Below the pieces are notes generated by a model. It was not told the DNA's origin, did not search any database, and worked only from the letters and a program-made list of their open reading frames with translations. From the NCBI RefSeq assembly GCF_016464425.1, contig NZ_JADDKQ010000009.1, forward strand, positions 1 through 64,000: 64,000 bases of DNA, written 5' to 3'. How positions within the stretch are numbered: position 1 is the stretch's first letter; each line of letters starts with the position of its first letter. Position numbers and translations under genes: made by a program. This stretch comes from Actinotalea solisilvae. Lineage in GTDB: Bacteria > Actinomycetota > Actinomycetes > Actinomycetales > Cellulomonadaceae. Below are positions 43,690-55,180 of the stretch, in pieces.

Positions 43690-43932
43690 TCACGTCGGTG
43701 CTCTCCTCCCCGCGTCGGTCCCCGCGGCGAGCTCCTCCCTGACCTCCCGGTAGGTCTCCACGTCGATGTCGCCGGCCGCGAGGCGCGCGTCGAGGACGGC
43801 ACGCGCGTCCGGCTCGGCCTGGGCCGGGAACAGACGACTCACCGCCCCCACGACGACGCCGACCACGACGACCCAGAACGCGATCATGGAGAGCCATCCT
43901 CCGGCCGCCATCTGACCGCACCACGGACCCAT
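43690..43932 (-). CDS. Small membrane protein with SHOCT domain
   Basis: 80 residues from ATG 43932 (GGGAGA upstream). One membrane helix (about 13-33, WLSMIAFWVVVVGVVVGAVS) is followed by the SHOCT pattern VLDARLAAGDIDVETYREVREEL. SHOCT domains are short C-terminal interaction or regulatory modules seen in envelope and electrolyte-stress proteins; the precise role is unknown. It is divergent from the NlpC/P60 gene and preceded by a CTTCAG-N5-CTTCAC repeat shared with the neighbouring metal/redox genes. Confidence 0.78.
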   Translation of the reverse strand: MGPWCGQMAAGGWLSMIAFWVVVVGVVVGAVSRLFPAQAEPDARAVLDARLAAGDIDVETYREVREELAAGTDAGRRAPT

Positions 43933-44015
43933 GGCCGTCTCCCGCTCTCTCCCGGGCGCCCCGTGGCGCCTGCGTCCACCGTCTCGGGGACGGGTCAAGA
44001 AGCACCGGGGATCCG

Positions 44016-44032
44016 GTGAAGAGTCGCTGAAG
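44016..44032 (-). promoter_or_regulatory. Direct-repeat site CTTCAG-N5-CTTCAC upstream of the SHOCT gene
   Basis: Two hexamers, 11 bp start to start, reading toward the SHOCT gene that starts 84 bases downstream. One of five similar sites in the 43.7-54.3 kb cluster; OmpR-type regulators typically bind tandem repeats with this spacing. Confidence 0.5.
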
Positions 44033-44091
44033 ACGCGAGGCGACCCGCCCGCCCCGTCGAACGCCCGCGCAGCGCCCGTCGTCACCGATTC

Positions 44092-44121
44092 GTGACAATC
44101 GGACGGACGCCTGCCTACCAT
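44092..44121 (+). promoter_or_regulatory. Promoter for the riboswitch and NlpC/P60 gene
   Basis: A -35-like GTGACA (44092-44097) and a -10-like TACCAT (44116-44121) are separated by 18 bp. The resulting leader of about 205 nt contains the c-di-AMP riboswitch. The overlapping GTCACC-N5-GTGACA could also bind a regulator. Confidence 0.45.
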
Positions 44122-44180
44122 GTGCGCGCTCGGGGTCGTCCCGGGCGTCCCGAGGCGGACCGCCGAGTCCTGCCACCGCC

Positions 44181-44325
44181 GAGGGGACAGCTCGAACCGC
44201 CGGCAGGAGCGGGGGAACCACATCGCGGCCGCGACCTCGTCGTCGGCCTTGGGGTGAAGCCGGACACCGTCCGGCCGGGCGCACTCCCGCCCGAACCCGA
44301 CAGCTCACCTCGTAGGCGACCGGAG
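44181..44325 (+). ncRNA. Cyclic di-AMP riboswitch (ydaO/yuaA type)
   Basis: The conserved pieces of this riboswitch appear in order: GACAGCTCGAACCGCCGGCA, GGAGCGGGGGAACC, GGGGTGAAGCC, then CCGAACCCGACAGCTCACCT followed by CGTAGGC. The ribosome site GGAGAGG and start codon of the NlpC/P60 gene come directly after. In actinobacteria this element commonly precedes cell-wall hydrolase genes and lowers expression when c-di-AMP is high. Confidence 0.88.
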
Positions 44326-44333
44326 AGGTTCCC

Positions 44334-45107
44334 ATGCCCGCACCCTGTGCCCGGGCGCGCCACCGCGCCCCAGGCGGACCGCACACGATCCTGCACGACG
44401 TCGCCGCAGGTACCGCGCAGGTCGTCGAGGGCACCGGGCGCCGCGCCGTCGTCGTCGTCGGTGCGTCCGGTCTGGTCGCGTCGATGCTGGCGGGACCGGC
44501 TGCGGCCGCCCCGGCCGACCACCCGAACCTGCCGACCGTCGACACCGCGTCGCTCACGGTCCCGGCCCAGCAGGCCCTCGCGGTCTCGGCGCCCGTGTCG
44601 GTGCCCGTGGACGCCGCCTGGACGTTCGACGTCCCGGCGATCACCGTGGTCGCCGACCCGCCGCCGCCGCCGCCGGAGCCCGAGCCGGAGCCGGAGCCGG
44701 CCGCGTCGCGGGGGGCGGAGCGCGCGACGCCCGCGCCGGAGACGTCGATCGGTGCGCCCGCGCCGGCGAGCGCGAACGGGAGCGCGATCGTCGAGATCGC
44801 CTCGCGCTACGTCGGCGTGCCCTATGTGTGGGGCGGGACGACCCCCGACGGCTTCGACTGCTCGGGCTTCACGTCCTACGTCTACGCCCAGGTCGGCATC
44901 ACCCTCCCCCGCACGTCCGCGGACCAGCGCTACGCCGGCACCGTCGTGCCGTTCGACCAGGCGCAGCCCGGTGACCTGATCTGGTCCCCTGGCCACATCT
45001 CGATCTACGCCGGGGGCAACCTCCAGGTGGACGCCCCGGTCCCGGGCAAGACGATCCAGATCCGCGAGATCTGGCAGTCGGACCCGGTGTTCATCCGCGT
45101 GGGCTGA
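44334..45107 (+). CDS. Secreted NlpC/P60 peptidoglycan endopeptidase
   Basis: 257 residues. A signal sequence with an unusually long n-region (hydrophobic part about 38-58, cleavage near AAAAP) is followed by a linker rich in Pro and Glu (PPPPPPEPEPEPEPA) and a C-terminal NlpC/P60 domain from about residue 145. The catalytic Cys lies in TTPDGFDCSGFTSYVY, the His in SPGHISIYAG, and the third polar residue in LQVDAPVPG. It cuts peptide stems in the cell wall. Expression is likely set by the c-di-AMP riboswitch in its leader, linking wall hydrolysis to turgor or wall stress. Confidence 0.92.
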   Translation: MPAPCARARHRAPGGPHTILHDVAAGTAQVVEGTGRRAVVVVGASGLVASMLAGPAAAAPADHPNLPTVDTASLTVPAQQALAVSAPVSVPVDAAWTFDVPAITVVADPPPPPPEPEPEPEPAASRGAERATPAPETSIGAPAPASANGSAIVEIASRYVGVPYVWGGTTPDGFDCSGFTSYVYAQVGITLPRTSADQRYAGTVVPFDQAQPGDLIWSPGHISIYAGGNLQVDAPVPGKTIQIREIWQSDPVFIRVG

Positions 45108-45142
45108 CGCGCCCGCACCGTCGCAGCCCGGGGCGGACCAGC

Positions 45143-45159
45143 CTTCGTGGGATCTTCAT
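45143..45159 (+). promoter_or_regulatory. Direct-repeat site CTTCGT-N5-CTTCAT upstream of the DUF305 gene
   Basis: Hexamers 11 bp apart on the coding strand, 108 bases before the DUF305 start. Same arrangement and direction as at the ATPase, SHOCT, thioredoxin-like and 54338 genes. Confidence 0.55.
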
Positions 45160-45266
45160 CGACGCGCGAGCGGACGTGCCCCGTCGTGGCGCAGGCTTGA
45201 AGCACGCCCCTCCCCGGGCGACGTCGTGCCGTCGTCCAGGGGCGACCGACGCGAGGAGACCCACCG

Positions 45267-45890
45267 ATGACCCGAACCCGCCGATCCCTTGCCGCCGTCA
45301 GCGGGGCGCTGCTCCTCGCGGCCTCGCTCACCGCGTGCGCCGGCACCGCGGACGAGACGGGTCCGGCGGCGGAGACGTCGGCGTCCCCGTCCGCGGACGA
45401 GACCGCCGCGGCGGACGCGCACAACGACGCGGACACCCAGTTCGCCCAGATGATGGTCGTGCACCACGAGGGCGCCATCGAGATGGCCGAGCTCGCGGTG
45501 GAGCGCGGGGGCAGCGAGGAGGTCCGGGCCCTCGGTGAACGCATCGCCGCCGCCCAGGGCCCCGAGATCGACACGATGACGTCCTGGCTCGAGGCGTGGG
45601 GCGAGGAGGCCCCCGCGGGGATGGACATGGGCGGCATGGACCACGGCGACATGCAGATGGACGGCATGGACCAGGAGATGGTCATGGGCCAGCTCTCCGA
45701 CCTCACGGGCGCCGAGTTCGACCGGCGCTTCCTCGAGCTCATGATCGAGCACCACCGCGGCGCCATCTCGATGTCCGAGCAGCACCGTGAGGAGGGTCGG
45801 AACCCGGAGGCGATCCAGCTCTCCGGCGACATCATCGACGCCCAGACCACCGAGATCGCCGAGATGACCGACCTCCTCGCGACGCTGTAG
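45267..45890 (+). CDS. DUF305 lipoprotein, probably copper-associated
   Basis: 207 residues. The lipobox LTAC (about residue 24) is followed by an acidic linker and two DUF305 halves: FAQMMVVHHEGAIEMAELA and FLELMIEHHRGAISMSEQH. Between them is a Met/His/Asp cluster (GMDMGGMDHGDMQMDGMDQ, about residues 115-133) suited to binding Cu(I). DUF305 proteins are ferritin-like four-helix proteins often found with copper resistance genes. It is preceded by the CTTCGT-N5-CTTCAT site and lies beside a CcdA/TlpA trio. Confidence 0.9.
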   Translation: MTRTRRSLAAVSGALLLAASLTACAGTADETGPAAETSASPSADETAAADAHNDADTQFAQMMVVHHEGAIEMAELAVERGGSEEVRALGERIAAAQGPEIDTMTSWLEAWGEEAPAGMDMGGMDHGDMQMDGMDQEMVMGQLSDLTGAEFDRRFLELMIEHHRGAISMSEQHREEGRNPEAIQLSGDIIDAQTTEIAEMTDLLATL

Positions 45891-45968
45891 CCGGCCTCCG
45901 ACTCGGAGGTCCTCTCCCCCGTCGCAGCCAGTGACATGGCGCGAGCCGTGAGGTGGGAGCGGTCGTCG

Positions 45969-46595
45969 TCACAGCCGGCTCTGCACCTCGTCGAGGAGGT
46001 CCTGGGGCGCGAGCCACATCGACGGGTAGCTGCCGTACCACTGCTGCACGCCCTCGGCGTCGACGAGGACGAACCCGTGACCCGGGAGGCCCGGGTGCAT
46101 GCCGGTGCCGAGCGTCCCGTACTGCTCGGAGACGGTGCCGTCGTCGAGCAGGAAGTCCGACGCGACGCCGAGCCGGGTGCGCTCGGCATTGATCTGCTCG
46201 GCGGTGTTCATCACGATCGGCAGGACGGTGATCCCCGCCTCGGCGAAGGCCGGGTCCTTCTCGATCTCGGCCATCTGCATGAGGCACGAGTCGCAGCCGG
46301 CGCCCTCGTTGAAGTACAGGACGACGGGCGAGCCCTGCAGCTCGGAGAGCGTCACCGTCCGGCCGTCCGACGTCGGCAGCGTGAAGTCGGGGGCGACGCG
46401 GGCGTCCGACGACTCGACCGGCCTGGACGCGAGGAGCGCCGCCACGACGAGGGTCACGACGACGACGAGCGCCGCACCCCACGCCGCCAGGCTGATGCGG
46501 TGCCGTCGCCTGGCCGTGGCGAGCCGTCCCCCGCGGAGCTCGTCGAGCATCTCCTGACGCTCGGCCTGACGACGGACTGCGGTTCCGGAGGTCAT
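45969..46595 (-). CDS. Membrane-anchored thiol-disulfide oxidoreductase (redoxin/TlpA-like)
   Basis: 208 residues. After a charged 35-residue cytoplasmic lead comes one membrane helix (about 38-58), then a thioredoxin-fold domain outside the membrane: VAPDFTLPTSDGRTVTLSEL, the active site GAGCDSCLMQM (CxxC), and the cis-Pro region HPGLPGHGFVLVD. It belongs to the AhpC/TSA-redoxin group. The start overlaps the CcdA-like gene by four bases, so it is likely the periplasmic partner that receives electrons from it. Confidence 0.88.
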   Translation of the reverse strand: MTSGTAVRRQAERQEMLDELRGGRLATARRRHRISLAAWGAALVVVVTLVVAALLASRPVESSDARVAPDFTLPTSDGRTVTLSELQGSPVVLYFNEGAGCDSCLMQMAEIEKDPAFAEAGITVLPIVMNTAEQINAERTRLGVASDFLLDDGTVSEQYGTLGTGMHPGLPGHGFVLVDAEGVQQWYGSYPSMWLAPQDLLDEVQSRL

Positions 46596-47527
46596 CGGAC
46601 CACGTCTCCTTCGGTGGTGGTGCTGTGGCAGCTGGGGGCGTCGGCCGGCGCGGTGGAGGGGTGCGGTCCGCGGCGGCCGGCAAGCGTCGCCCACACGAAC
46701 ACGGCGGCGAGAGCGAGCAGTGCCGTCCCGAGGACCGGCTCGGGCACCGGGCTCACCCAGGCCTGCACGGCGAGGAGGACGTCGGTGAGGGTGCTCGCGG
46801 CGACGTCCTGAGCGGCCGTCCCGCCCGTCATGTCCGTGTCGCCGGCGAGCGCGATGACGAAGACACCCATCACCACGAAGCCGAGGGCGACGGCGATGTT
46901 CAGGCTGTTCGTCGCGATCGCCCGGCCCGCGACGTGCACGCGCACGGGACGGGCGCGCAGGAGCTGCCGCTCGCCGAGCCGTGCCCGGTCCCAGACCAGC
47001 GCCATGACGAACAGCGGGAAGACCATGCCGAAGACGTACGCCAGGCCCAGGGCCAGGCCTCCGACGGCCGACCCGGACAGGACCGAGAGCGTCATGACGC
47101 CGGCGAGCACGGGGGCGCAGCAGCTCGACGCCACACCGGAGAAGACGCCGAGGGCGAAGAAGCTCGCGGTGTCGCCCCGCGAGGTGTCCGGCGCGCGGAG
47201 GACGGTCGGCAGCGACCACATGGTGCCCGAGAACGAGAGCGCGGCCAGGGCGAACATGAGCACGCCGCCCGCGATGTAGAGGGGCACGTGGTAGCGCGCG
47301 ATCGCGCCCGCCAGCAGGCTCGTGCCGAGCGTGATCGGGACGAGCACGACCGCGAGACCGGCGGCGAAGACGAAGGTCAGCGGCAGGAGCCGCCACCGGC
47401 GGTTCTTCACGGCTCCCGCGAGGTAGCTGGGCGCGAGGAACACGATGCAGCAGGGCGCGAAGAGCGCGACGCCCCCGGCGAAGAAGGCCGCGAGGATGCT
47501 CCCCGTGGTGAGCAGCTCGGCGCCCAT
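46592..47527 (-). CDS. CcdA/DsbD-like transmembrane electron carrier
   Basis: 311 residues, about seven membrane helices. The redox Cys pairs typical of the family are in FAPCCIVFLAP (helix 1) and SSCCAPVLAGV (helix 4). The C-terminal tail is His/Pro-rich. CcdA passes electrons from cytoplasmic thioredoxin across the membrane to extracytoplasmic redoxins. Its start overlaps the thioredoxin-like gene (TGATG) and its end overlaps the redoxin gene (ATGA), giving a tight three-gene unit. Confidence 0.88.
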   Translation of the reverse strand: MGAELLTTGSILAAFFAGGVALFAPCCIVFLAPSYLAGAVKNRRWRLLPLTFVFAAGLAVVLVPITLGTSLLAGAIARYHVPLYIAGGVLMFALAALSFSGTMWSLPTVLRAPDTSRGDTASFFALGVFSGVASSCCAPVLAGVMTLSVLSGSAVGGLALGLAYVFGMVFPLFVMALVWDRARLGERQLLRARPVRVHVAGRAIATNSLNIAVALGFVVMGVFVIALAGDTDMTGGTAAQDVAASTLTDVLLAVQAWVSPVPEPVLGTALLALAAVFVWATLAGRRGPHPSTAPADAPSCHSTTTEGDVVR

Positions 47528-47835
47528 CAGGCGCTCACGACGCGGGGGGCGGGGCGTGCAGCGGCACGAGCGGCGAGGAGCTTCGCGAGCTTCCTGCGCG
47601 GGAGGCGCCCCGAGCTGAAGTACTCCCCCTCGACGAGCACCAGGGGGTTCATGGCGGGCCGGTGCCGCCGCACCAGCTGCGCCCCGTCGGCGGACTCGAG
47701 CTCCACGACGCGCACGGCCAGGGGCCACGTCTCGCCGAGCTCGGCCAACGTGCGGGTCGCGTCGTCGCAGAAGTGGCACGCCGGTGCGTGCACGACGGTC
47801 ACGTGGACGGCGGGGACGTCGGGCGTCGGTGTCAT
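47527..47835 (-). CDS. Small thioredoxin/glutaredoxin-like protein
   Basis: 102 residues with one thioredoxin-like domain: VTVVHAPACHFCDDATRTL (CxxC with His-Phe inside) and the cis-Pro region in RPAMNPLVLVEG. No signal peptide, so cytoplasmic. It would reduce the CcdA-like protein encoded immediately downstream. First gene of the trio; its upstream region carries a CTTCAC-N5-GTTGAT element and it is divergent from the two-component genes. Confidence 0.82.
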   Translation of the reverse strand: MTPTPDVPAVHVTVVHAPACHFCDDATRTLAELGETWPLAVRVVELESADGAQLVRRHRPAMNPLVLVEGEYFSSGRLPRRKLAKLLAARAAARPAPRVVSA

Positions 47836-47908
47836 CGGGCTCTCCGGGAGGCAGGGGGTCGTTCCCGACCACGGTCCCGGGTACGTGCTGCGCTCCCGTC
47901 GTCGTTCG

Positions 47909-47925
47909 ATCAACGTTCCGTGAAG
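47909..47925 (-). promoter_or_regulatory. Direct-repeat-like site CTTCAC-N5-GTTGAT upstream of the thioredoxin-like operon
   Basis: The first hexamer fits the cluster motif well and the second matches four of six positions, with the same 11-bp spacing. It sits in the 142-bp gap shared with the response-regulator gene, so it could serve both directions. Weakest of the five sites. Confidence 0.35.
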
Positions 47926-47977
47926 CCCGCGGCGAGCGGGCACCGCGGGCGCCGTCGGCGGCGGAGGCGCCCGCACA

Positions 47978-48694
47978 ATGGGGACCATGGCTCCCTCGAC
48001 GACACGCCGCGCCCTGGTCATCGACGACGAGCGGGCGCTGGCCTCGCTCGTCGGGGGGTACCTCGAGCGCGAGGGCTTCGAGGTCCACCTCGCCCACGAC
48101 GGTCACGACGGTCTCGAGCGGGCGCGGTCCGTCGACCCCGACCTCGTCGTGCTCGACCTGGGCCTTCCCGGGCTCGACGGCATCGAGGTGTGCCGCCTGC
48201 TCCGGACGTTCTCGGACTGCTACGTCGTGATGCTCACGGCACGGTCGGAGGAGATCGACACGCTCATCGGCCTGTCGGTCGGGGCGGACGACTACATGAC
48301 CAAGCCCTTCAGCCCGCGTGAGCTGGTCGCCCGTGTCTCGACCCTCTTCCGACGCCCGCGCCGGGCCGCGAGCCCGGCGCCGGGCGCCGAGCCGCTGCGC
48401 GTGGGCCCGCTCACGCTCGACCTCGAGTCCCGCGAGGTGAGGGTCGACGACTCCGTGGTCGCGCTGACGAGGACGGAGTTCGACGTCCTCAGCACGCTGG
48501 CCCGCTTCCCCCGACGGGTGTTCAGCCGCCGGGCGCTCATCGACGAGGTCTGGGGGCAGAACTGGGTCGGTGACGAGCACCTCGTCGACGTGCACGTGCT
48601 GCACGTGCGGCAGAAGCTCGGTGACACCGCAGCAGCGCAGCGCTTCGTGCGGACGGTCCGTGGCGTCGGGTACCGGCTGGGGTCCGGGGAGTGA
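47978..48694 (+). CDS. OmpR/PhoB-type response regulator
   Basis: 238 residues counted from ATG 47978; an ATG nine bases later is equally possible. The receiver domain has the acidic VIDDERA, phospho-acceptor Asp60 in LVVLDLGLPG, the Thr in VMLTARSEE and the Lys in YMTKPF. A C-terminal winged helix follows (LTLDLESREVRVDD, LTRTEFDVLSTLA, VDVHVLHVRQKLGD, VRTVRGVGYRL). It overlaps the kinase gene by GTGA. Surrounding genes suggest it controls the metal/redox cluster. Confidence 0.93.
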   Translation: MGTMAPSTTRRALVIDDERALASLVGGYLEREGFEVHLAHDGHDGLERARSVDPDLVVLDLGLPGLDGIEVCRLLRTFSDCYVVMLTARSEEIDTLIGLSVGADDYMTKPFSPRELVARVSTLFRRPRRAASPAPGAEPLRVGPLTLDLESREVRVDDSVVALTRTEFDVLSTLARFPRRVFSRRALIDEVWGQNWVGDEHLVDVHVLHVRQKLGDTAAAQRFVRTVRGVGYRLGSGE

Positions 48695-49857
48695 GCACGC
48701 ACGGGTGGTCGAACCCCACCCACGGCCTCGCCGCCCGCCTGCTCGGCGCCCTCGCCCTGGTGGTCCTGGCGGGTGGGCTCACCGCCTGGCTCGTCGCCGG
48801 GGCGGTCGGGCCGGCGGTCTTCCACGACCACATGATCGAGGCGGGCCTCCACGAGGAGACACCCGCCGTGCTCCATGCCGAGGAGGCGTTCCGGTCGTCG
48901 AGCGCCCTGGCCCTGACGATCGCCCTGAGCGCGTCGGTGCTGGCGTCCCTGGCGGTGAGCCTCGTCCTCACGCGGCGCATCTCCCTGTCGCTGCGGACGC
49001 TCGCGACGGCCGCCACCCGGGTCGCTGCCGGGCACTTCGACTCCCGCGTCGCCACCCCACGACTGGGCGACGAGTTCGAGCAGCTGGCGCAGGCGTTCAA
49101 CGACATGGCCGACCGGCTGCGTGAGAGCGACGCGCTGCGGCGACGACTGCTCTCGGACGTCGCCCACGAGGTGCGCACGCCCGTCGCCGTCCTCAACGCC
49201 TACCTCGAGGCGGTCGAGGACGGCGTGGAGAGCCTGAGCCCCGAGACCCTCGCCGTCCTGCGCGACCAGGGGTCACGCCTGACCCGCCTGGCGACGGACC
49301 TGGCGTCCGTCACCCGGGCCGAGGGCGGTGACCTGGTCCTCGTGCTCCAGCCCGCGTCGGCGGCGGAGATCGTCGAGAGGGCGCGCGCGGCGGCCCAGGA
49401 GCAGTGCGCCGCACGAGGCGTGACGCTCGACGTCGAGGTCGAGCCCGACCTTCCCCCGGTCACGGTGGACCTGGACCGCATCGGCCAGGTCCTGGCCAAC
49501 CTGCTGGAGAACGCGCTCCGGCACACGCCGCCCCACGGCGAGGTCGTGATCAGCGCCACCCGGGCCGAGGAGCACACGGTGCGTCTCGCCGTGACCGACA
49601 CGGGCGAGGGCATCGAGGCCGCGCACCTCGAGCACGTCTTCGAGCGGTTCTACCGCGTCGACACGGCACGCGACCGGTATCACGGCGGGTCGGGCATCGG
49701 CCTGGCGATCGTGCGCGCGATCGTCACGGCCCACGGTGGGCACGTCCGCGCCTCGAGCCGAGGGCCCGGGACCGGCGCCCGCTTCGAGGTCGACCTCCCC
49801 GCGCTCGAGCCGCGGACCGCGGAGCGTCCCCGCCGCCAGGAGCCGCGCACTTCATGA
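48691..49857 (+). CDS. Membrane sensor histidine kinase
   Basis: 388 residues. Two membrane helices (about 14-38 and 72-93) enclose a short external loop of about 33 residues holding His45, His47, Met48, Glu50, His54, Glu55, Glu56, His62, Glu64 and Glu65, which looks like a metal site. HAMP follows (about 94-146), then the HisKA box with His159 in LLSDVAHEVRTPVAVL, and an HATPase with ENALRHTPPHGEV, VTDTGEGIEAAHLEHVFERFYR and GGSGIGLAIVRAIV. GTG 48691 overlaps the regulator stop. Partner of the response regulator upstream. Confidence 0.93.
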   Translation: MSTHGWSNPTHGLAARLLGALALVVLAGGLTAWLVAGAVGPAVFHDHMIEAGLHEETPAVLHAEEAFRSSSALALTIALSASVLASLAVSLVLTRRISLSLRTLATAATRVAAGHFDSRVATPRLGDEFEQLAQAFNDMADRLRESDALRRRLLSDVAHEVRTPVAVLNAYLEAVEDGVESLSPETLAVLRDQGSRLTRLATDLASVTRAEGGDLVLVLQPASAAEIVERARAAAQEQCAARGVTLDVEVEPDLPPVTVDLDRIGQVLANLLENALRHTPPHGEVVISATRAEEHTVRLAVTDTGEGIEAAHLEHVFERFYRVDTARDRYHGGSGIGLAIVRAIVTAHGGHVRASSRGPGTGARFEVDLPALEPRTAERPRRQEPRTS

Positions 49858-49866
49858 GATCTTCAT
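49850..49866 (+). promoter_or_regulatory. Direct-repeat site CTTCAT-N5-CTTCAT upstream of the P-type ATPase
   Basis: Two identical hexamers 11 bp apart, overlapping the stop codon of the kinase gene and about 90 bases before the ATPase start. Best copy of the five and the basis for the motif. Confidence 0.6.
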
Positions 49867-49910
49867 CGGGCGTGCGGTGATCCGGGAAGCCTCGGGGGCG
49901 TGAGGTGGTT

Positions 49911-49931
49911 GCATACCCCACAGGGGTATGC
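49911..49931. promoter_or_regulatory. CsoR-type copper operator upstream of the P-type ATPase
   Basis: GCATACCCC and GGGGTATGC form a perfect inverted repeat with 9-bp arms around ACA, 25 bp before the ATPase start codon. The ATACCCC...GGGGTAT form is the known box of the copper-sensing repressor CsoR. The csoR gene is not in this window. Confidence 0.75.
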
Positions 49932-49955
49932 AGGACTCACAGGAGGTGCACGGCC

Positions 49956-52202
49956 ATGCGACGTCAGTCCACGGTGCTCGCGGTGGGAGGCCCAGACCCG
50001 GCCACGTCCGAGCACGTCGTCCCGACGGTCCCGCCGGCCCGGCGGGGGGTCCTCCCGGTCGAGCCCAGCGAGGGCGACCCTGAGGACCACGGGCCTGCGC
50101 ACGACGAGGCACCGCTCGGCCACTCCGCGCACGAGGCGATGGGCCACGGCGGCCACGGCGGGTCCATGGCGGACATGGCCCGCGACATGCGGAACCGGTT
50201 CGTCGTCGCGGCCGCCCTGTCCGTGGTGATCCTGCTCTGGTCGCCGATCGGCCGCGAGGTGCTGGGCTTCGATCTCCCCGCGCCGTTCGGGCTCCGGGAC
50301 GACGTGTTCTCGCTGCTCCTGTCCGTGCCCGTGGTGTCCTACTCGGCAGCGCTCTTCTTCGACGGCGCCGTGCGGGCGCTGCGGGCGAGGACCCTCGACA
50401 TGATGGTCCTCGTCGCCGTCGGTGTCGGCGCCGGCTGGCTCTACAGCGTGGCGGTGACCCTCACGGGCGGCGGAGAGGTCTTCTACGAGGCCGCCACCGT
50501 GCTGACCACCTTCGTCCTGCTCGGTCACTGGCTGGAGATGCGCGCGCGGGGCGGGGCCAACGACGCCGTGCGTACGCTGCTCGAGCTCGCCCCGGCCCGC
50601 GCAGTGGTGATCCGCGACGGCGGCCCTGTCGAGATCGCCACGTCGGACGTGGTCGTCGGAGACCTCCTCCTGGTGCGGCCGGGGTCCAAGATCCCCGTCG
50701 ACGCGGTCGTCGAGGACGGCGAGTCCGAGGTCGACGAGTCGATGGTCACCGGGGAGTCCATGCCCGTGGCCAAGGCGGCCGGGGCGGGCCTGATCGGCGC
50801 GTCGATCAACACCACCGGCACGCTGCGCGCCCGCGCGACGAAGGTCGGGGCGGACACCGCGCTCGCGCAGATCGTCGCGATGGTCCAGGAGGCCCAGAAC
50901 TCCAAGGCGCCCGGCCAGCGCCTGGCCGACCGGGCGGCGTCCTGGCTGGTGCTCGTCGCGCTCGCCGGGGGCGGGGCCACCTTCGCGGTCTGGATGCTGG
51001 CCGGGGCCCCGGTGGCGACGGCGATGCTCTTCGCCATCACGGTCGTGGTGGTCACCTGCCCGGACGCCCTCGGGCTGGCCACGCCCACGGCGATCATGGT
51101 CGGTACCGGGCTGGGCGCACAGCGTGGCGTGCTGTTCAAGAACGCCACGGCGCTCGAGAGCACGGCGAGGATCGACACGGTCGTCATGGACAAGACCGGC
51201 ACGCTGACGCGGGGCGAGCCCGAGGTGACCGACGTCGTGGCCGAGGGCATCGACGAGGCGGAGCTGCTCGCGCTCGTCGCCGCCGTCGAGCGCGAGTCCG
51301 AGCACCCGCTGGCGAGGGCGATCGAGCGGCACGCCGCACAGGTCGGGGTACCCGTCCGCGCCGCCGTCGACTTCCTCGCCGTGCCGGGGCACGGCGCGGT
51401 GGCCGTGGTCGACGGACGCCGGGTGCTGGTGGGCAACCGGCGGCTCATGGCGGCCGAGCACGTCGAGCTCGGTCGACTGGCGGGCCGGCGCGACGAGATC
51501 GCCTCCTCCGGCCGCACGGCGGTCCTGGTCGCCGTGGACGGTCGGGCCGTCGGCGTCATCGGCCTGGCGGACGCGGCGCGGGAGACCGCCGCAGCCGCGG
51601 TGGCCGCGCTGCACGGGTCCGGCGTCGAGGTCGTCATGCTCACCGGGGACAACGAGGCGACCGCTCGACGCATCGCCGACCAGCTCGGGATCGACAGGGT
51701 GATCGCGGAGGTGCTCCCCGGTGACAAGGCCGAGGAGGTCGCCGCGCTGCAGAGGGCGGGCCGGACCGTCGCGATGGTCGGCGACGGCGTGAACGACGCT
51801 CCCGCGCTGGCGATGGCGGACGTCGGGATCGCGATCGGCGCCGGCACCGACGTGGCGATCGAGACCGCGGACGTCGTCCTCATGCGGTCCGACCCGCTGG
51901 ACGTGTCGGTCGCGCTGCGCATCGGCCGGGCGACCGTGCACAAGGAGCGGCAGAACCTGGCGTGGGCGATCGGCTACAACGCGATCGCGCTGCCGATCGC
52001 CGCGGGCGTCTTCTACCCCGCGTTCGAGCTGATGCTGCGCCCCGAGATCGCGGCGCTGTCCATGTCCGGCTCCACGGTCATCGTCACCGTGAACGCCCTG
52101 GTTCTCAAGCGCCTCCGGCTGCCCGAGCAGCACCTGCCGCGACCCTCGGGCGGCGCGGCCGAGGCCGCCCCGCGACCTCCGGTGCCCGCCGGCGCCCGCT
52201 GA
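49956..52202 (+). CDS. P1B-type heavy-metal ATPase with CPD transmembrane motif
   Basis: 748 residues from ATG 49956 (AGGAGG 9 nt upstream). The cytoplasmic N-terminus has no CxxC domain but a His-rich segment (about 45-70). It has the actuator TGES (VTGESMP, about 265), the phosphorylated Asp412 in DKTGTLT, the HP motif at His450 (SEHPLARAIE), and GDGVNDAPAL. The transmembrane metal motif reads CPD (Cys368-Asp370, TCPDALGLATPTAI) where Cu(I) pumps have CPC and CopB-like pumps CPH. It probably exports copper or a related ion, given the CsoR-type box and the DUF305 neighbour; the CPD motif leaves the metal open. Confidence 0.93.
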   Translation: MRRQSTVLAVGGPDPATSEHVVPTVPPARRGVLPVEPSEGDPEDHGPAHDEAPLGHSAHEAMGHGGHGGSMADMARDMRNRFVVAAALSVVILLWSPIGREVLGFDLPAPFGLRDDVFSLLLSVPVVSYSAALFFDGAVRALRARTLDMMVLVAVGVGAGWLYSVAVTLTGGGEVFYEAATVLTTFVLLGHWLEMRARGGANDAVRTLLELAPARAVVIRDGGPVEIATSDVVVGDLLLVRPGSKIPVDAVVEDGESEVDESMVTGESMPVAKAAGAGLIGASINTTGTLRARATKVGADTALAQIVAMVQEAQNSKAPGQRLADRAASWLVLVALAGGGATFAVWMLAGAPVATAMLFAITVVVVTCPDALGLATPTAIMVGTGLGAQRGVLFKNATALESTARIDTVVMDKTGTLTRGEPEVTDVVAEGIDEAELLALVAAVERESEHPLARAIERHAAQVGVPVRAAVDFLAVPGHGAVAVVDGRRVLVGNRRLMAAEHVELGRLAGRRDEIASSGRTAVLVAVDGRAVGVIGLADAARETAAAAVAALHGSGVEVVMLTGDNEATARRIADQLGIDRVIAEVLPGDKAEEVAALQRAGRTVAMVGDGVNDAPALAMADVGIAIGAGTDVAIETADVVLMRSDPLDVSVALRIGRATVHKERQNLAWAIGYNAIALPIAAGVFYPAFELMLRPEIAALSMSGSTVIVTVNALVLKRLRLPEQHLPRPSGGAAEAAPRPPVPAGAR

Positions 52203-52211
52203 TCGGGTGGC

Positions 52212-53636
52212 TCACATGCGGTGGGCCATCGGCAGCAGGAACATCCACACGTTCACGGCGCCGAGCAGGGCGATGATCACGACGAACGGCAGGACCGTCG
52301 CGCGGCGACGGGCGGCGGTCCGGTACCGACGGTGCGCGATCCGGCGAGCCGTGTAGACGGAGCCCGCGACACCCAGGGCGAGCAGGGCGAACTGCAGGAC
52401 CTGGATCGTGGCTGCGCTGACGAGGGCGGGATCGCCGGTCGCGGTCGAGCCGAACAGGGCGGCGGTCGTGTAGTAGACCGAGCCGCCCTCGGCGAGCAGG
52501 TGGAACAGGTTGTGCGCCAGGTGCCCGGCGACGTCGAGCGGGATGAGCGCGTACCCGAACCGGGCGACGTTCGTCGTCGTCGTCTCCAGGTTCCTGCCGG
52601 CCGCCACCCTGGACGCGACCGCGAGGAGCCCCACCGGGACGGTCACCGCGACCGCGAAGGCGACGGTGAAGATGACCGGGTAGCTCGTGATCCCGGTCGT
52701 GGCCGCGATCCAGGCCAGGACGTCCTGCCAGACCTCGAGCATGGTGATGTTCTGGATGAGGACGATGCCCATGATCGCCATCGCGAGGTAGGACTGCTCG
52801 AGCTTCGGCCTGGTGATGAACCACAGCTCGGAGGTGGGCCTGCGCAGCCGGACCTGGATGGCGTCGTTGGGACAGCTCTTGATGCAGTTGGCGCACAGGT
52901 TGCAGTTCGCCGAGTCCTCCATGGTGCGGGGGAAGGTGAACAGCGGGCACCCGGCGACCTTGTCGTCGCCGTTGTAGCAGACGGCCTTGGCCGTGCAGGT
53001 CCGGCAGATCGCGGAGTCCGCGCGCAGCTCGACCATCCCGACGCGGGCGTAGTTGCCCGACAGCCCGCCGAGGAAGCACAGGTACCGGCAGAAGGTGCGG
53101 CGCTGGAAGAGCGCTCCGGACGCGATCACCGCGGTGGTGAGGATCAGCAGCAGCACGCCCGAGCCCCACGGCGACTCCACGACGCCCCAGACGTGGTCGG
53201 CCCAGGTGATGAGGAGGAACGACGCGTCGATGATCCAGATGCCGTAGCTCTTGAGGAAGCGGGGCACCGGGCGGTTGACGCCGACCCACCTCTGCACGAC
53301 GTCCGAGATCGCGCCGAACGGGCACACGGCGCACCAGAACCGGCCGAGCAGGACGAACACGATCGGGATCACCGGCCACCACAGCACCCACATCAGCGCG
53401 GTCCCGGCGTTCTCGTGCGCGACGTCCGGCCCCACCAGCAGCTGGAAGGCCACCAGCCCGAACACGGCCGCGACCGGGATCTGCAGGATCTTGGGGTACC
53501 ACCCGCTGCGCAGGGTGCGCGCGACCCACGGGACGGTCATGAGGTTGCGCCCGACGGGCGGTGGCGTGGTGTCCGGGCCGGCGAGGTCCGGGTCCGGTGC
53601 GGGCGGCGGGGCGTCCGTCACGGTGGGGGCGGTCAT
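52212..53636 (-). CDS. Membrane 4Fe-4S protein of the NapH/NosR/CcoG-like group
   Basis: 474 residues, about nine membrane helices. Cys motifs: FWCAVCPFGA and FCRYLCFLGG on the membrane-facing loops, then CRTCTAKAVCYNGDDKVAGCP, and a ferredoxin-type CNLCANCIKSCPNDAI. These can hold two 4Fe-4S clusters plus the NapH/NosR CxxxCP motifs. Such proteins move electrons from the quinone pool or cytoplasm to extracytoplasmic metal or redox enzymes. It ends 10 bases from the ATPase end (convergent) and follows the His-rich repeat gene by 17 bases. Confidence 0.85.
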   Translation of the reverse strand: MTAPTVTDAPPPAPDPDLAGPDTTPPPVGRNLMTVPWVARTLRSGWYPKILQIPVAAVFGLVAFQLLVGPDVAHENAGTALMWVLWWPVIPIVFVLLGRFWCAVCPFGAISDVVQRWVGVNRPVPRFLKSYGIWIIDASFLLITWADHVWGVVESPWGSGVLLLILTTAVIASGALFQRRTFCRYLCFLGGLSGNYARVGMVELRADSAICRTCTAKAVCYNGDDKVAGCPLFTFPRTMEDSANCNLCANCIKSCPNDAIQVRLRRPTSELWFITRPKLEQSYLAMAIMGIVLIQNITMLEVWQDVLAWIAATTGITSYPVIFTVAFAVAVTVPVGLLAVASRVAAGRNLETTTTNVARFGYALIPLDVAGHLAHNLFHLLAEGGSVYYTTAALFGSTATGDPALVSAATIQVLQFALLALGVAGSVYTARRIAHRRYRTAARRRATVLPFVVIIALLGAVNVWMFLLPMAHRM

Positions 53637-53653
53637 GGTGCTCTCCTCGCGGA

Positions 53654-54094
53654 TCAGGCGGTCGGGGTGGCGGCGGGCGCGCCGGCCGCCCTCGGTCGAT
53701 GGCGCGGTCTGGCGGCGTCCCTCCGGCGGAGCCAGGCGGCGCCGACGAGGACCGCGGCGTTGACGCCTGCGAAGCTCCCGAGCACCGCGGCCCGCGGGCG
53801 TGGGGACGCGGAGCCCGACTCGTCGTGACCCTCGCCCGCCTCGTCGTGCTCCCCGGCACCCTCGTCGTGCTCCGCACCGCCCTCGTGCTCCGCGGCGGCG
53901 CCGTCGTCGTGCACGGCGGTGTCCTCCTCGTGGTCCGCACCGCCGTCGTGCTCCGCGGCGGCGCCGTCGTCGTGCTCGGACGTCGCCTCCACGGCGTGGG
54001 CGCGCTGGACGGTGAGGTCCGGCGCGGTCGCGTCCCCGACGGCCGGCAGCGCGAGCAGCGCGGCGGCAGGGAGCGTGACGAGCATCGGGTGCAT
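53654..54094 (-). CDS. Secreted, membrane-anchored His/Asp/Glu-rich repeat protein
   Basis: 146 residues. A signal sequence (about 1-22) is followed by an external region of about 70 residues made of His-Asp/Glu-Gly-Ala units (HDDGAAAEHDGGA, HDDGAAAEHEGGA, EHDEGAGEHDEAG). Then come one membrane helix (about 105-122) and an Arg/Pro/Ala tail. About ten His alternate with acidic residues, which suggests binding of copper or zinc outside the membrane. GGAGG lies 6 nt before ATG 54094. First gene of a pair with the Fe-S protein. Confidence 0.72.
   Translation of the reverse strand: MHPMLVTLPAAALLALPAVGDATAPDLTVQRAHAVEATSEHDDGAAAEHDGGADHEEDTAVHDDGAAAEHEGGAEHDEGAGEHDEAGEGHDESGSASPRPRAAVLGSFAGVNAAVLVGAAWLRRRDAARPRHRPRAAGAPAATPTA
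53873..53974. repeat. 39-bp direct repeat within the His-rich gene
   Basis: The copies at 53873-53911 and 53936-53974 differ at one base and are 63 bp apart (21 codons), so the reading frame is kept. They encode the HDDGAAAEH(D/E)GGA unit. Such repeats allow the metal-binding region to lengthen or shrink by slippage. Confidence 0.8.
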
Positions 54095-54176
54095 GGGGTT
54101 CCTCCGGAGGGGTCCCCGGAACTCTCCTGCCGTCCGGGGGGCTCGCCGTAGGACGTGCCGGGCCCGGACGGGGAAC

Positions 54177-54193
54177 CTCCATCGAACCTTCAT
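54177..54193 (+). promoter_or_regulatory. Direct-repeat site CTCCAT-N5-CTTCAT in the 53654/54338 divergent gap
   Basis: Two hexamers 11 bp apart, pointing to the lipoprotein gene at 54338, and also only 83 bases upstream of the divergent His-rich gene. A -10-like TAGCGT at 54283-54288 precedes the lipoprotein start by about 50 bases. Confidence 0.5.
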
Positions 54194-54337
54194 CGGGCGG
54201 CACCCGTGAGGCCGCCCCGCGCCCACGGCCGGCCCCGACGATCACGGTCCTTCGCCTCTGCCGCGCGCCGGCCGACCGTCCTAGCGTCGAGCCCGGACGC
54301 CGCCGGTGAGCGCCGGCGCGACGCGAGGGAGTGCGCG

Positions 54338-55180
54338 ATGTGCAGGGCCCGGAGAGCCGTGGCAGCGGTCGCCGTCCTGGCGGCGCTGGGCCTGGCCGGG
54401 TGCGCGGGCGCCCCGACCGCGCCCGCGGCGTCGCCGTCGGACGCGACGACCGCCGCCCCGAGGGCGTCGTCGGCCGCGACCGCCTCCCCGCGGCCGACGA
54501 CGCCGACCACCGGGCCGACGTCGCCCGCCCCGGACTCGGCGGAGCACGCGCTCGCCCCGTTCGTCGAGGCCGCACGCGCCGCCGACGTCGCGCTCCGGCA
54601 CGCCGCGACGCACATCGACGGCACCGTCCGCGAGGACGCGGTGGTCCTCGACGACGAGACGGTCGCGGCGGTCCAGGCGGTCGACCTCGCCGCCGTGCGC
54701 GAGGCGATCCCCGCCGGTCTGGCGGCACCCGTCCTGGTGCCCGTGCTGACCGTGTACAGCGACCTGGTGTCGCGGCGTGCGGCGATGGCCTACGCCGGCG
54801 TCGCCGCCACGACCTACCCGCGGCCGGGCACCGAGGCGGACGAGCTGCTCGCCTGCCTGGGTCACGGGTCGCCCGCGGCCGCGCGGTTCGACGCGGACCT
54901 CGAGGCGCTGGGCGCGGCCGCTCGGACGGCTCCCCCGCCAGGGGCCGTCGCGCCCGGCGCGCGGGCGGGCGCGGACCTCGCGGCCCGGCTCGAGGAGATC
55001 GACCTGCGCAACTCCGGGTGCGCCGGGTGCGGCGGGTACGTCGCCACGGCGCTGTCCCCCGTCGTCTGGGACGGCGCCGCGCCGGGAGCGACCGTCCTGA
55101 CCGGGACGGTCGGCGGCACGCGCGTCGACGCGGTGTGGACCGCCGCGGACGGCTGGACGGCCACGCTGGACGCCTGCTGA
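54338..55180 (+). CDS. Lipoprotein of unknown function
   Basis: 280 residues. The lipobox LAGC (about residue 22) is followed by a Thr/Pro/Ser/Ala linker to about residue 65. A helical region with His (VALRHAATHIDG) follows, and a C-terminal part has RNSGCAGCGGYV, a CxxC. Two further Cys occur (ELLACLG and the final Cys). The family is not recognised. Position next to the His-rich and Fe-S proteins, and the CTCCAT-N5-CTTCAT site, suggest membership of the metal/redox cluster. Confidence 0.75.
   Translation: MCRARRAVAAVAVLAALGLAGCAGAPTAPAASPSDATTAAPRASSAATASPRPTTPTTGPTSPAPDSAEHALAPFVEAARAADVALRHAATHIDGTVREDAVVLDDETVAAVQAVDLAAVREAIPAGLAAPVLVPVLTVYSDLVSRRAAMAYAGVAATTYPRPGTEADELLACLGHGSPAAARFDADLEALGAAARTAPPPGAVAPGARAGADLAARLEEIDLRNSGCAGCGGYVATALSPVVWDGAAPGATVLTGTVGGTRVDAVWTAADGWTATLDAC

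Follow-up and report, generated by a model that had tools for sequence, protein, structure and literature searches.

Introduction

The closest described relative of the system considered here is the CopRS two-component system of Corynebacterium glutamicum. According to the accessible parts of the reports, it has one site between divergent genes, the only genomic site reported: TGAAGATTTgaTGAAGATTT, a direct repeat at -59 to -78 of copR that was tested by electrophoretic mobility shift assay and by mutation. The start of copR could not be mapped (PMC3140484). Loss of CopRS raised the sensitivity to copper and left that to seven other named metals unaffected, and cg3283-cg3281 fell only about two-fold (PMC3353115). 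Here, we analyse a window of 64,000 nucleotides of Actinotalea solisilvae (contig NZ_JADDKQ010000009.1, positions 1 to 64,000, forward strand), in which a direct repeat of the same 11-bp period occurs five times around a regulator and its kinase. Judging from the sequence, the repeats and the regulator very probably form an actinobacterial CopRS-type copper-stress regulon that spans several promoters and includes an ATPase promoter with dual input.

Two other systems resemble parts of this locus, as far as the text available for each goes. In Streptomyces lividans, type 2 operators of CsoR follow the rule TAC-N9-GTA, with G-tracts (PMC3902906). In Synechocystis, CopM, a copper-binding protein of the DUF305 domain family, is under a copper two-component system also called CopRS. 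This likeness is one of description; the organism is a cyanobacterium, and the other operon there is copBAC, an RND system (PMC4335983). CopRS and the types of CsoR operators are already known; what is new here is the spacing of the site to the -10 element in both orientations, the prediction of leaderless copR genes and the pairing of CopR and CsoR sites in composite promoters. Literature titles and abstract openings, with subscription papers mostly outside, showed neither a CopR regulon in actinobacteria other than C. glutamicum nor a promoter shared by CopR and CsoR, which is weak evidence of absence.

The repeated sites and their distribution

An initial annotation, made from the letters of the window alone, had described a CTTCAT-N5-CTTCAT repeat in five gaps of one metal/redox cluster and proposed a two-component regulon. 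All five hexamer pairs are present with an 11-bp periodicity (consensus CTTCATCGAACCTTCAT): CTTCAGCGACTCTTCAC (44016..44032, minus strand), CTTCGTGGGATCTTCAT (45143..45159, plus), CTTCACGGAACGTTGAT (47909..47925, minus), CTTCATGAGATCTTCAT (49850..49866, plus) and CTCCATCGAACCTTCAT (54177..54193, plus). Not all of them are wholly intergenic: the kinase reading frame runs to 49857, and its last codons are shared with the 49850-49866 site. The reverse complement of TGAAGATTTgaTGAAGATTT contains the repeat of the window. When the published direct repeat, TGAAGATTTnnTGAAGATTT, is used as the criterion of membership in CopRS of the C. glutamicum type, four of the five sites match it at 13-15 of 20 positions with the 11-bp period, and 47909 at fewer than 13.

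For a test free of circularity, we used the published site as the sole query and compared it with 60 permuted repeat units in three sets: the window plus C12 (a contig of the same assembly with a second copper cluster), 33 loci picked by similarity of their regulator or kinase, and 32 other high-GC loci (five from the same assembly). With at least 14 of 20 positions matching, the window and C12 gave 13 matches against a permuted mean of 0.17 (maximum 2), the 33 related loci 66 against 2.8 (maximum 29), and the 32 others 1 against 0.5 (maximum 7). With at least 13 of 20, the corresponding values were 19 against 1.7 (maximum 15), 117 against 19.4 (maximum 75), and 12 against 5.5 (maximum 32). 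The five bases of the spacer, which lay outside the search that found 101 sites by their hexamers, are also non-random, mostly C-(G/A)-A-A-(C/T), and read CAAAT in C. glutamicum. A matrix made from these 101 sites gave 129 matches of at least 14 bits and 5 in the reversed loci, a partly circular comparison. In the 64-kb window, exactly the five sites reach 12 bits or more with a matrix from 36 loci, again with some circularity, as four sites of the window had contributed to that matrix; 47909 has the lowest score among the five, 16 bits.

Could short, loose hexamers simply recur by chance in a GC-rich genome? The window count taken by itself is modest: CTTCATN5CTTCAT with at most three mismatches occurs 9 times where 4.58 are expected, and 4 of 100 shuffles reach 9. 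With at most two mismatches there are four matches, all among the five sites (47909 has three mismatches). Across the whole 4.3-Mb assembly, however, the genome scan that the initial annotation had proposed, run here with the hexamer pattern, revealed strong clustering. It found 32 matches with at most two mismatches (11 for the reversed pattern): 4 in the window cluster, 12 at C12:189.7-223.2 kb, 2 at one site duplicated on C6 and C41, and 14 scattered. Half of them (16) thus fall within about 1% of the assembly, in regions named post hoc. The 11 matches with at most one mismatch comprise 3 in the window cluster, 6 at C12:190-220 kb and the 2 at the C6/C41 site. These numbers, the 13 matches to the published motif against 0.17, the conservation of sites in relatives and in the C12 copies, and the preferred -10 spacing described below leave the chance explanation with almost no credit.

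The regulator and its kinase

The response regulator (47987..48694, plus strand) is of the OmpR type, with a receiver and a Trans_reg_C domain. It is followed by a CopS-type sensor kinase (48691..49857, plus) with HAMP, HisKA and HATPase domains and a short extracytoplasmic loop, FHDHM...LHAEEAF. In a tree of 106 regulators, made by a quick method without bootstrap, 33 regulators of the window type and five corynebacterial CopR rows stand on one side of a branch with an SH-aLRT of 98; the other side has 68 regulators, including those of Streptomyces and Bacillota and a paralogue from just beyond the window (L167). The naming of the corynebacterial rows as CopR, and of their genus (that of genome G541) as Corynebacterium, is inferred from the adjoining published site. 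That site, with at most one mismatch, is present in 65 of 201 genomes of this genus, once in each; in a class-wide draw, the published 20-mer with one mismatch was found in 0 of 394 genomes. In all 20 corynebacterial loci fetched, the regulator next to the site is 52-55% identical to that of the window. The window kinase and three corynebacterial kinases have the loop FHDHM...H in common, and its residues are candidate copper ligands. Two genomes of the order of the window (L162, L165) carry a CopR of corynebacterial type that groups with the corynebacterial rows (SH-aLRT 99), which suggests transfer of the island.

The proposal that the OmpR-type regulator in the middle of the cluster governs the predicted regulon is strongly supported by its grouping with CopR and by the match of the repeats to the tested CopR site. 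Another regulator of the family, whether MtrA-, PhoP- or CutR-like or a second paralogue near C31 65-67 kb, might own the sites instead. Sites of OmpR-family regulators are often tandem, and the best NCBIfam match of the window regulator is MtrA, below the cut-off (229.7 against 300). Yet the paralogue in L167 (48% identity) falls among the Streptomyces regulators, apart from CopR, and the published site is matched often in loci with CopR-type regulators and at a rate near background in the 32 other high-GC loci. Ownership by another regulator is therefore very improbable. CutR in particular was rejected: its Streptomyces site is given as TAWATAAA in the part of the report seen (PMC12802291), and this motif is absent from the five 17-mers.

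Promoter organisation

The core of actinobacterial -10 elements is ANNNT, and we recorded its position around 93 sites (92 scoring at least 20 bits plus 47909 of the window). In 61 of them, the A of such an element lies 50-52 bp from the start of the site; for other 3-bp windows the count is 2-10. In the opposite orientation, 35 of the 93 have one at 66-68 bp (0-15 in other windows), and both positions are filled in 18. No -35 consensus was seen in the promoters of these sites. Within the window, 44016 and 45143 have the forward element only (GACGGT at 43978-43983 and CAGGCT at 45192-45197), 47909 has both (GACCGT at 47871-47876 leftward, CACAAT at 47974-47979 rightward), 54177 has the reverse one only (GAGAGT at 54121-54126, minus strand) and 49850 has neither. 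Near the expected place, the last has a weak candidate noticed by reading, TGAGGT at 49901-49906, which lacks the strict ANNNT.

The initial annotation had all repeats pointing at their downstream genes. This holds for the strand; as statements about targets, it needs correction for 47909, which has -10-like elements on both sides, and for 54177, whose strict element lies on the left only. Site orientation also varies among relatives. Since 47909 is flanked by -10-like elements, we judge it probably bidirectional.

The comparison with related gaps that had been proposed earlier bears out the pattern, as sites precede copR, DUF305, thiol-trio and SHOCT-like genes elsewhere. A site scoring at least 15 lies in the roughly 260 bp examined upstream of the CopR-type regulator in 30 of 39 loci; leaving aside five corynebacterial loci, whose selection rested on the presence of the site, the count is 25 of 34. 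It points away from copR in 29 of these 30. A -10 at 66-68 bp is found in 23 of the 39 (18 of 34), and in 24 of the 39 (19 of 34) the start codon of copR is 60-63 bp downstream of the site and about 7-8 bp downstream of the -10. Given this distance, copR is predicted to be often leaderless. The annotated start of the window copR, 47978, falls inside the -10, so we revised it to 47987, also predicted to be leaderless. The core of the site then lies at -62 to -78 of this ATG, against -59 to -78 in C. glutamicum. We also considered whether the forward spacing explains the distant start of cg3286 in C. glutamicum; this idea was dropped, as by reading the corynebacterial-type sites of L162 and L165 have no forward -10 at 50-52 bp.

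The CsoR-type operator before the ATPase

Downstream of 49850, the sequence ATACCCCACAGGGGTAT (49913..49929, plus strand) is a perfect palindrome that satisfies TAC-N9-GTA exactly and has the G-tracts of the type 2 operator of S. lividans. Its centre is 63 bp from that of the CopR-type site, a pairing at a preferred distance that sets it apart from the S. lividans operator as described. Three CsoR-family genes (PF02583, over the cut-off) are encoded in the assembly, where boxes of this type with at most two mismatches occur in five places. One of these, at C1:128461, lies about 55 bp ahead of the part of a csoR-family gene that gave the match. A further palindrome, at C31:219576 (L166:5577), has no CopR site; the gene caller found no gene in the gap, which possibly holds a small copper chaperone.

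We counted composites of the two sites with one distance per locus and boxes of at most two mismatches. In 9 of 15, the centres are 61-63 bp apart: the window, L032, L147, L075 and L154 in forward orientation, and L067, L158, L160 and G909 in reverse. L067 has a second box at 39 bp, the use of which makes the count 8 of 15; L160 has a second at 92 bp, and G909 belongs to the genus of the L160 genome. Composites without mismatches are rare (4 of 396 genomes per orientation, in a scan that covered gaps of 32-62 bp only), and three of the eight were already known. The five new ones have distances of 50, 57, 61, 71 and 74 bp, and the spread from 50 to 74 is why we do not call the spacing fixed. 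With at most three mismatches, 42 CsoR-type boxes occur in 36 loci against 6 in the reversed loci. In three corynebacterial islands that we read, a CsoR-type box follows copS and precedes the ATPase without a CopR site, whereas the ATPase promoter of the window has both.

Predicted targets and the C12 stretch

The initial annotation lacked both the copper/CopR identity and the CsoR-type operator, and two of its targets changed. The minus-strand site at 44016 precedes the gene of a small membrane protein (43690..43932, minus), SHOCT-like by a weak match (14 bits, below the Pfam cut-off of 27), and 45143 that of a DUF305 lipoprotein-like protein (45267..45890, plus; E 2e-48); both are predicted targets. 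Leftward of 47909 is its other predicted target beside copR, a thiol-redox operon of three genes (45969..47835, minus) encoding a glutaredoxin-like protein (47527-47835) and a CcdA/DsbD-like membrane protein (46592-47527), both weak matches below cut-off, and an AhpC-TSA/redoxin (45969-46550). Among relatives (L066, L069, L074, L076, L077), Actinotalea has sites before all three (DUF305, the thiol trio and the SHOCT-like gene), Cellulomonas and Mycolicibacterium have them before DUF305, and Nocardioides has them before the thiol trio.

The 49850 site and the CsoR-type operator precede a copper-type P1B ATPase (49956..52202, plus) with a His/Met-rich N terminus (TIGR01511, 575.6 bits, cut-off 397). 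A CPD motif replaces CPC/CPH in its TM6, as in six relatives that are 68-81% identical; five of these six loci also contain a CPC ATPase.

The site at 54177, assigned earlier to a lipoprotein-like protein (54338..55180, plus; no Pfam family), probably drives the leftward operon 52212..54094, which encodes a His-rich secreted protein (53654-54094, minus; no Pfam family) and a ferredoxin-type membrane protein (52212-53636, minus; 4Fe-4S domains, weakly NapH-like). The left half of the gap, toward the ferredoxin-type operon (94% identical on C12), is the better conserved one, and the genes on the right differ. On the plus strand, GACGAT (54237-54242), a weaker -10 candidate noticed by reading, lies about one turn farther than the usual forward -10, so the 54338 gene is a possible, less supported target.

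The second copper cluster of the assembly, at C12:184-234 kb (L031-L033), encodes a cupredoxin/YHS ATPase, CueP, a DUF326 protein, an LGT-like protein and CsoR. On C12, 14 sites score at least 20 bits. Genes with a site in front of them encode a DUF305 protein, the LGT-like protein and CueP; another site is 112 bp from the start of the DUF326 copper-storage-like protein. In four paralogous gaps of the window and C12 (64-86% identical), both copies keep the site as well as a -10-like element, whose position differs by no more than 1 bp between them; the site at 44016 is one of those kept. The stretch has a GC content of 0.70, against 0.72-0.77 in the other loci read in the assembly, and might be an acquired island. 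The contigs C6 and C41 (L034, L035) are 100% identical over 11,662 bases and have a perfect CTTCATN5CTTCAT before a DUF6803 membrane protein, downstream of genes that look by reading like nitrite reductase genes; the DUF6803 protein is a possible further CopR target.

Discussion

The comparison with C. glutamicum (PMC3140484, as far as its accessible text goes) extends from the regulator group and the 11-bp direct repeat to the distance from copR, the FHDHM loop and the placement of a site between divergent genes. One difference is that of number, with five sites in the window and 14 on C12. We infer CopR binding, the response to copper, activation and the AND-logic as follows. CopS would sense extracytoplasmic copper through its short HxHM...H loop, and phosphorylated CopR would bind two half-sites just upstream of the -35 region and recruit polymerase. 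In one orientation, the site would lie at about -62 to -46 and turn on DUF305, the SHOCT-like gene and the thiol operon; in the opposite one, it would drive copRS, whose transcript would begin at the start codon itself. Given a -10 at the usual place, the CsoR-type operator would cover about +1 to +17 of the ATPase promoter, and CsoR would hold this promoter shut until cytoplasmic Cu(I) rises, such that full expression would need both copper signals. Among the products, DUF305 would bind periplasmic copper, the thiol operon repair thiols, the ATPase export copper and the ferredoxin-type protein carry electrons.

The presence of the thiol trio and the ferredoxin-type protein among the predicted targets might instead indicate that a CopR-type regulon serves another stress, thiol/redox or another metal. 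The predicted set, however, includes CueP, DUF305, copper-type ATPases and the CsoR-type operator, and the phenotype of C. glutamicum without CopRS was specific to copper among the metals named in the text seen (PMC3353115). We regard a different stress as quite unlikely.

Several observations weigh against the copper regulon and its promoter rules. In nine of the 39 copR loci, the upstream stretch examined contains no site, and at 15 of the 93 sites both positions lack a -10-like element; the perfect site of the window, 49850, is one of these 15. Six composites depart from the preferred spacing (40, 50, 57, 71, 74 and 81 bp in L069, G033, G847, G773, G902 and L155, respectively), and 27 of the 42 CsoR-type boxes lack a CopR site at a distance of up to 200 bp. 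Some permuted controls were high: 15 against 19 observed in the window and C12 at 13 of 20 or more, and 29 against 66 in the 33 loci at 14 of 20 or more. The sites share ancestry, so the counts are of non-independent events. The assembly is scored as 8.17% contaminated, and the C12 island might come from another cell, a suspicion weakened by the GC content of 0.765 at C12:419 kb. Finally, order-wide counts of motif to control were 125:43 in 32 kinase-positive genomes and 240:86 in the first 64 rows of the table (overlapping sets). We rejected this genome-wide co-occurrence of motif and kinase as uninformative, the two ratios being alike and the reversed pattern a poor baseline for such counts. 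As these counts fail to separate kinase-positive genomes, the support for the regulon is its local enrichment.

A more general model goes further, and we consider its chances evenly balanced. It holds that a single non-palindromic site activates, depending on its orientation, either a promoter at a distance of about 62 bp or a leaderless copR promoter at about 77 bp, and that at copper-pump genes the site is coupled to a CsoR operator at a preferred 61-63 bp, with the operator over the start point, in a two-key gate for periplasmic and cytoplasmic copper that arose or was kept in several actinobacterial lineages.

If the copper regulon is as proposed here, a regulator reported with one site would become the head of a multi-promoter regulon with a readable grammar, and copper targets would be predictable across actinobacteria, including DUF305, SHOCT-like, thiol-redox and ferredoxin-type genes. 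Two loose ends in C. glutamicum would become testable: the unmapped start of copR, predicted to be at the start codon, and cg3283-cg3281, where a CsoR-controlled promoter after copS may explain the merely two-fold fall. The composite promoter, if true, would be a natural two-compartment copper gate.

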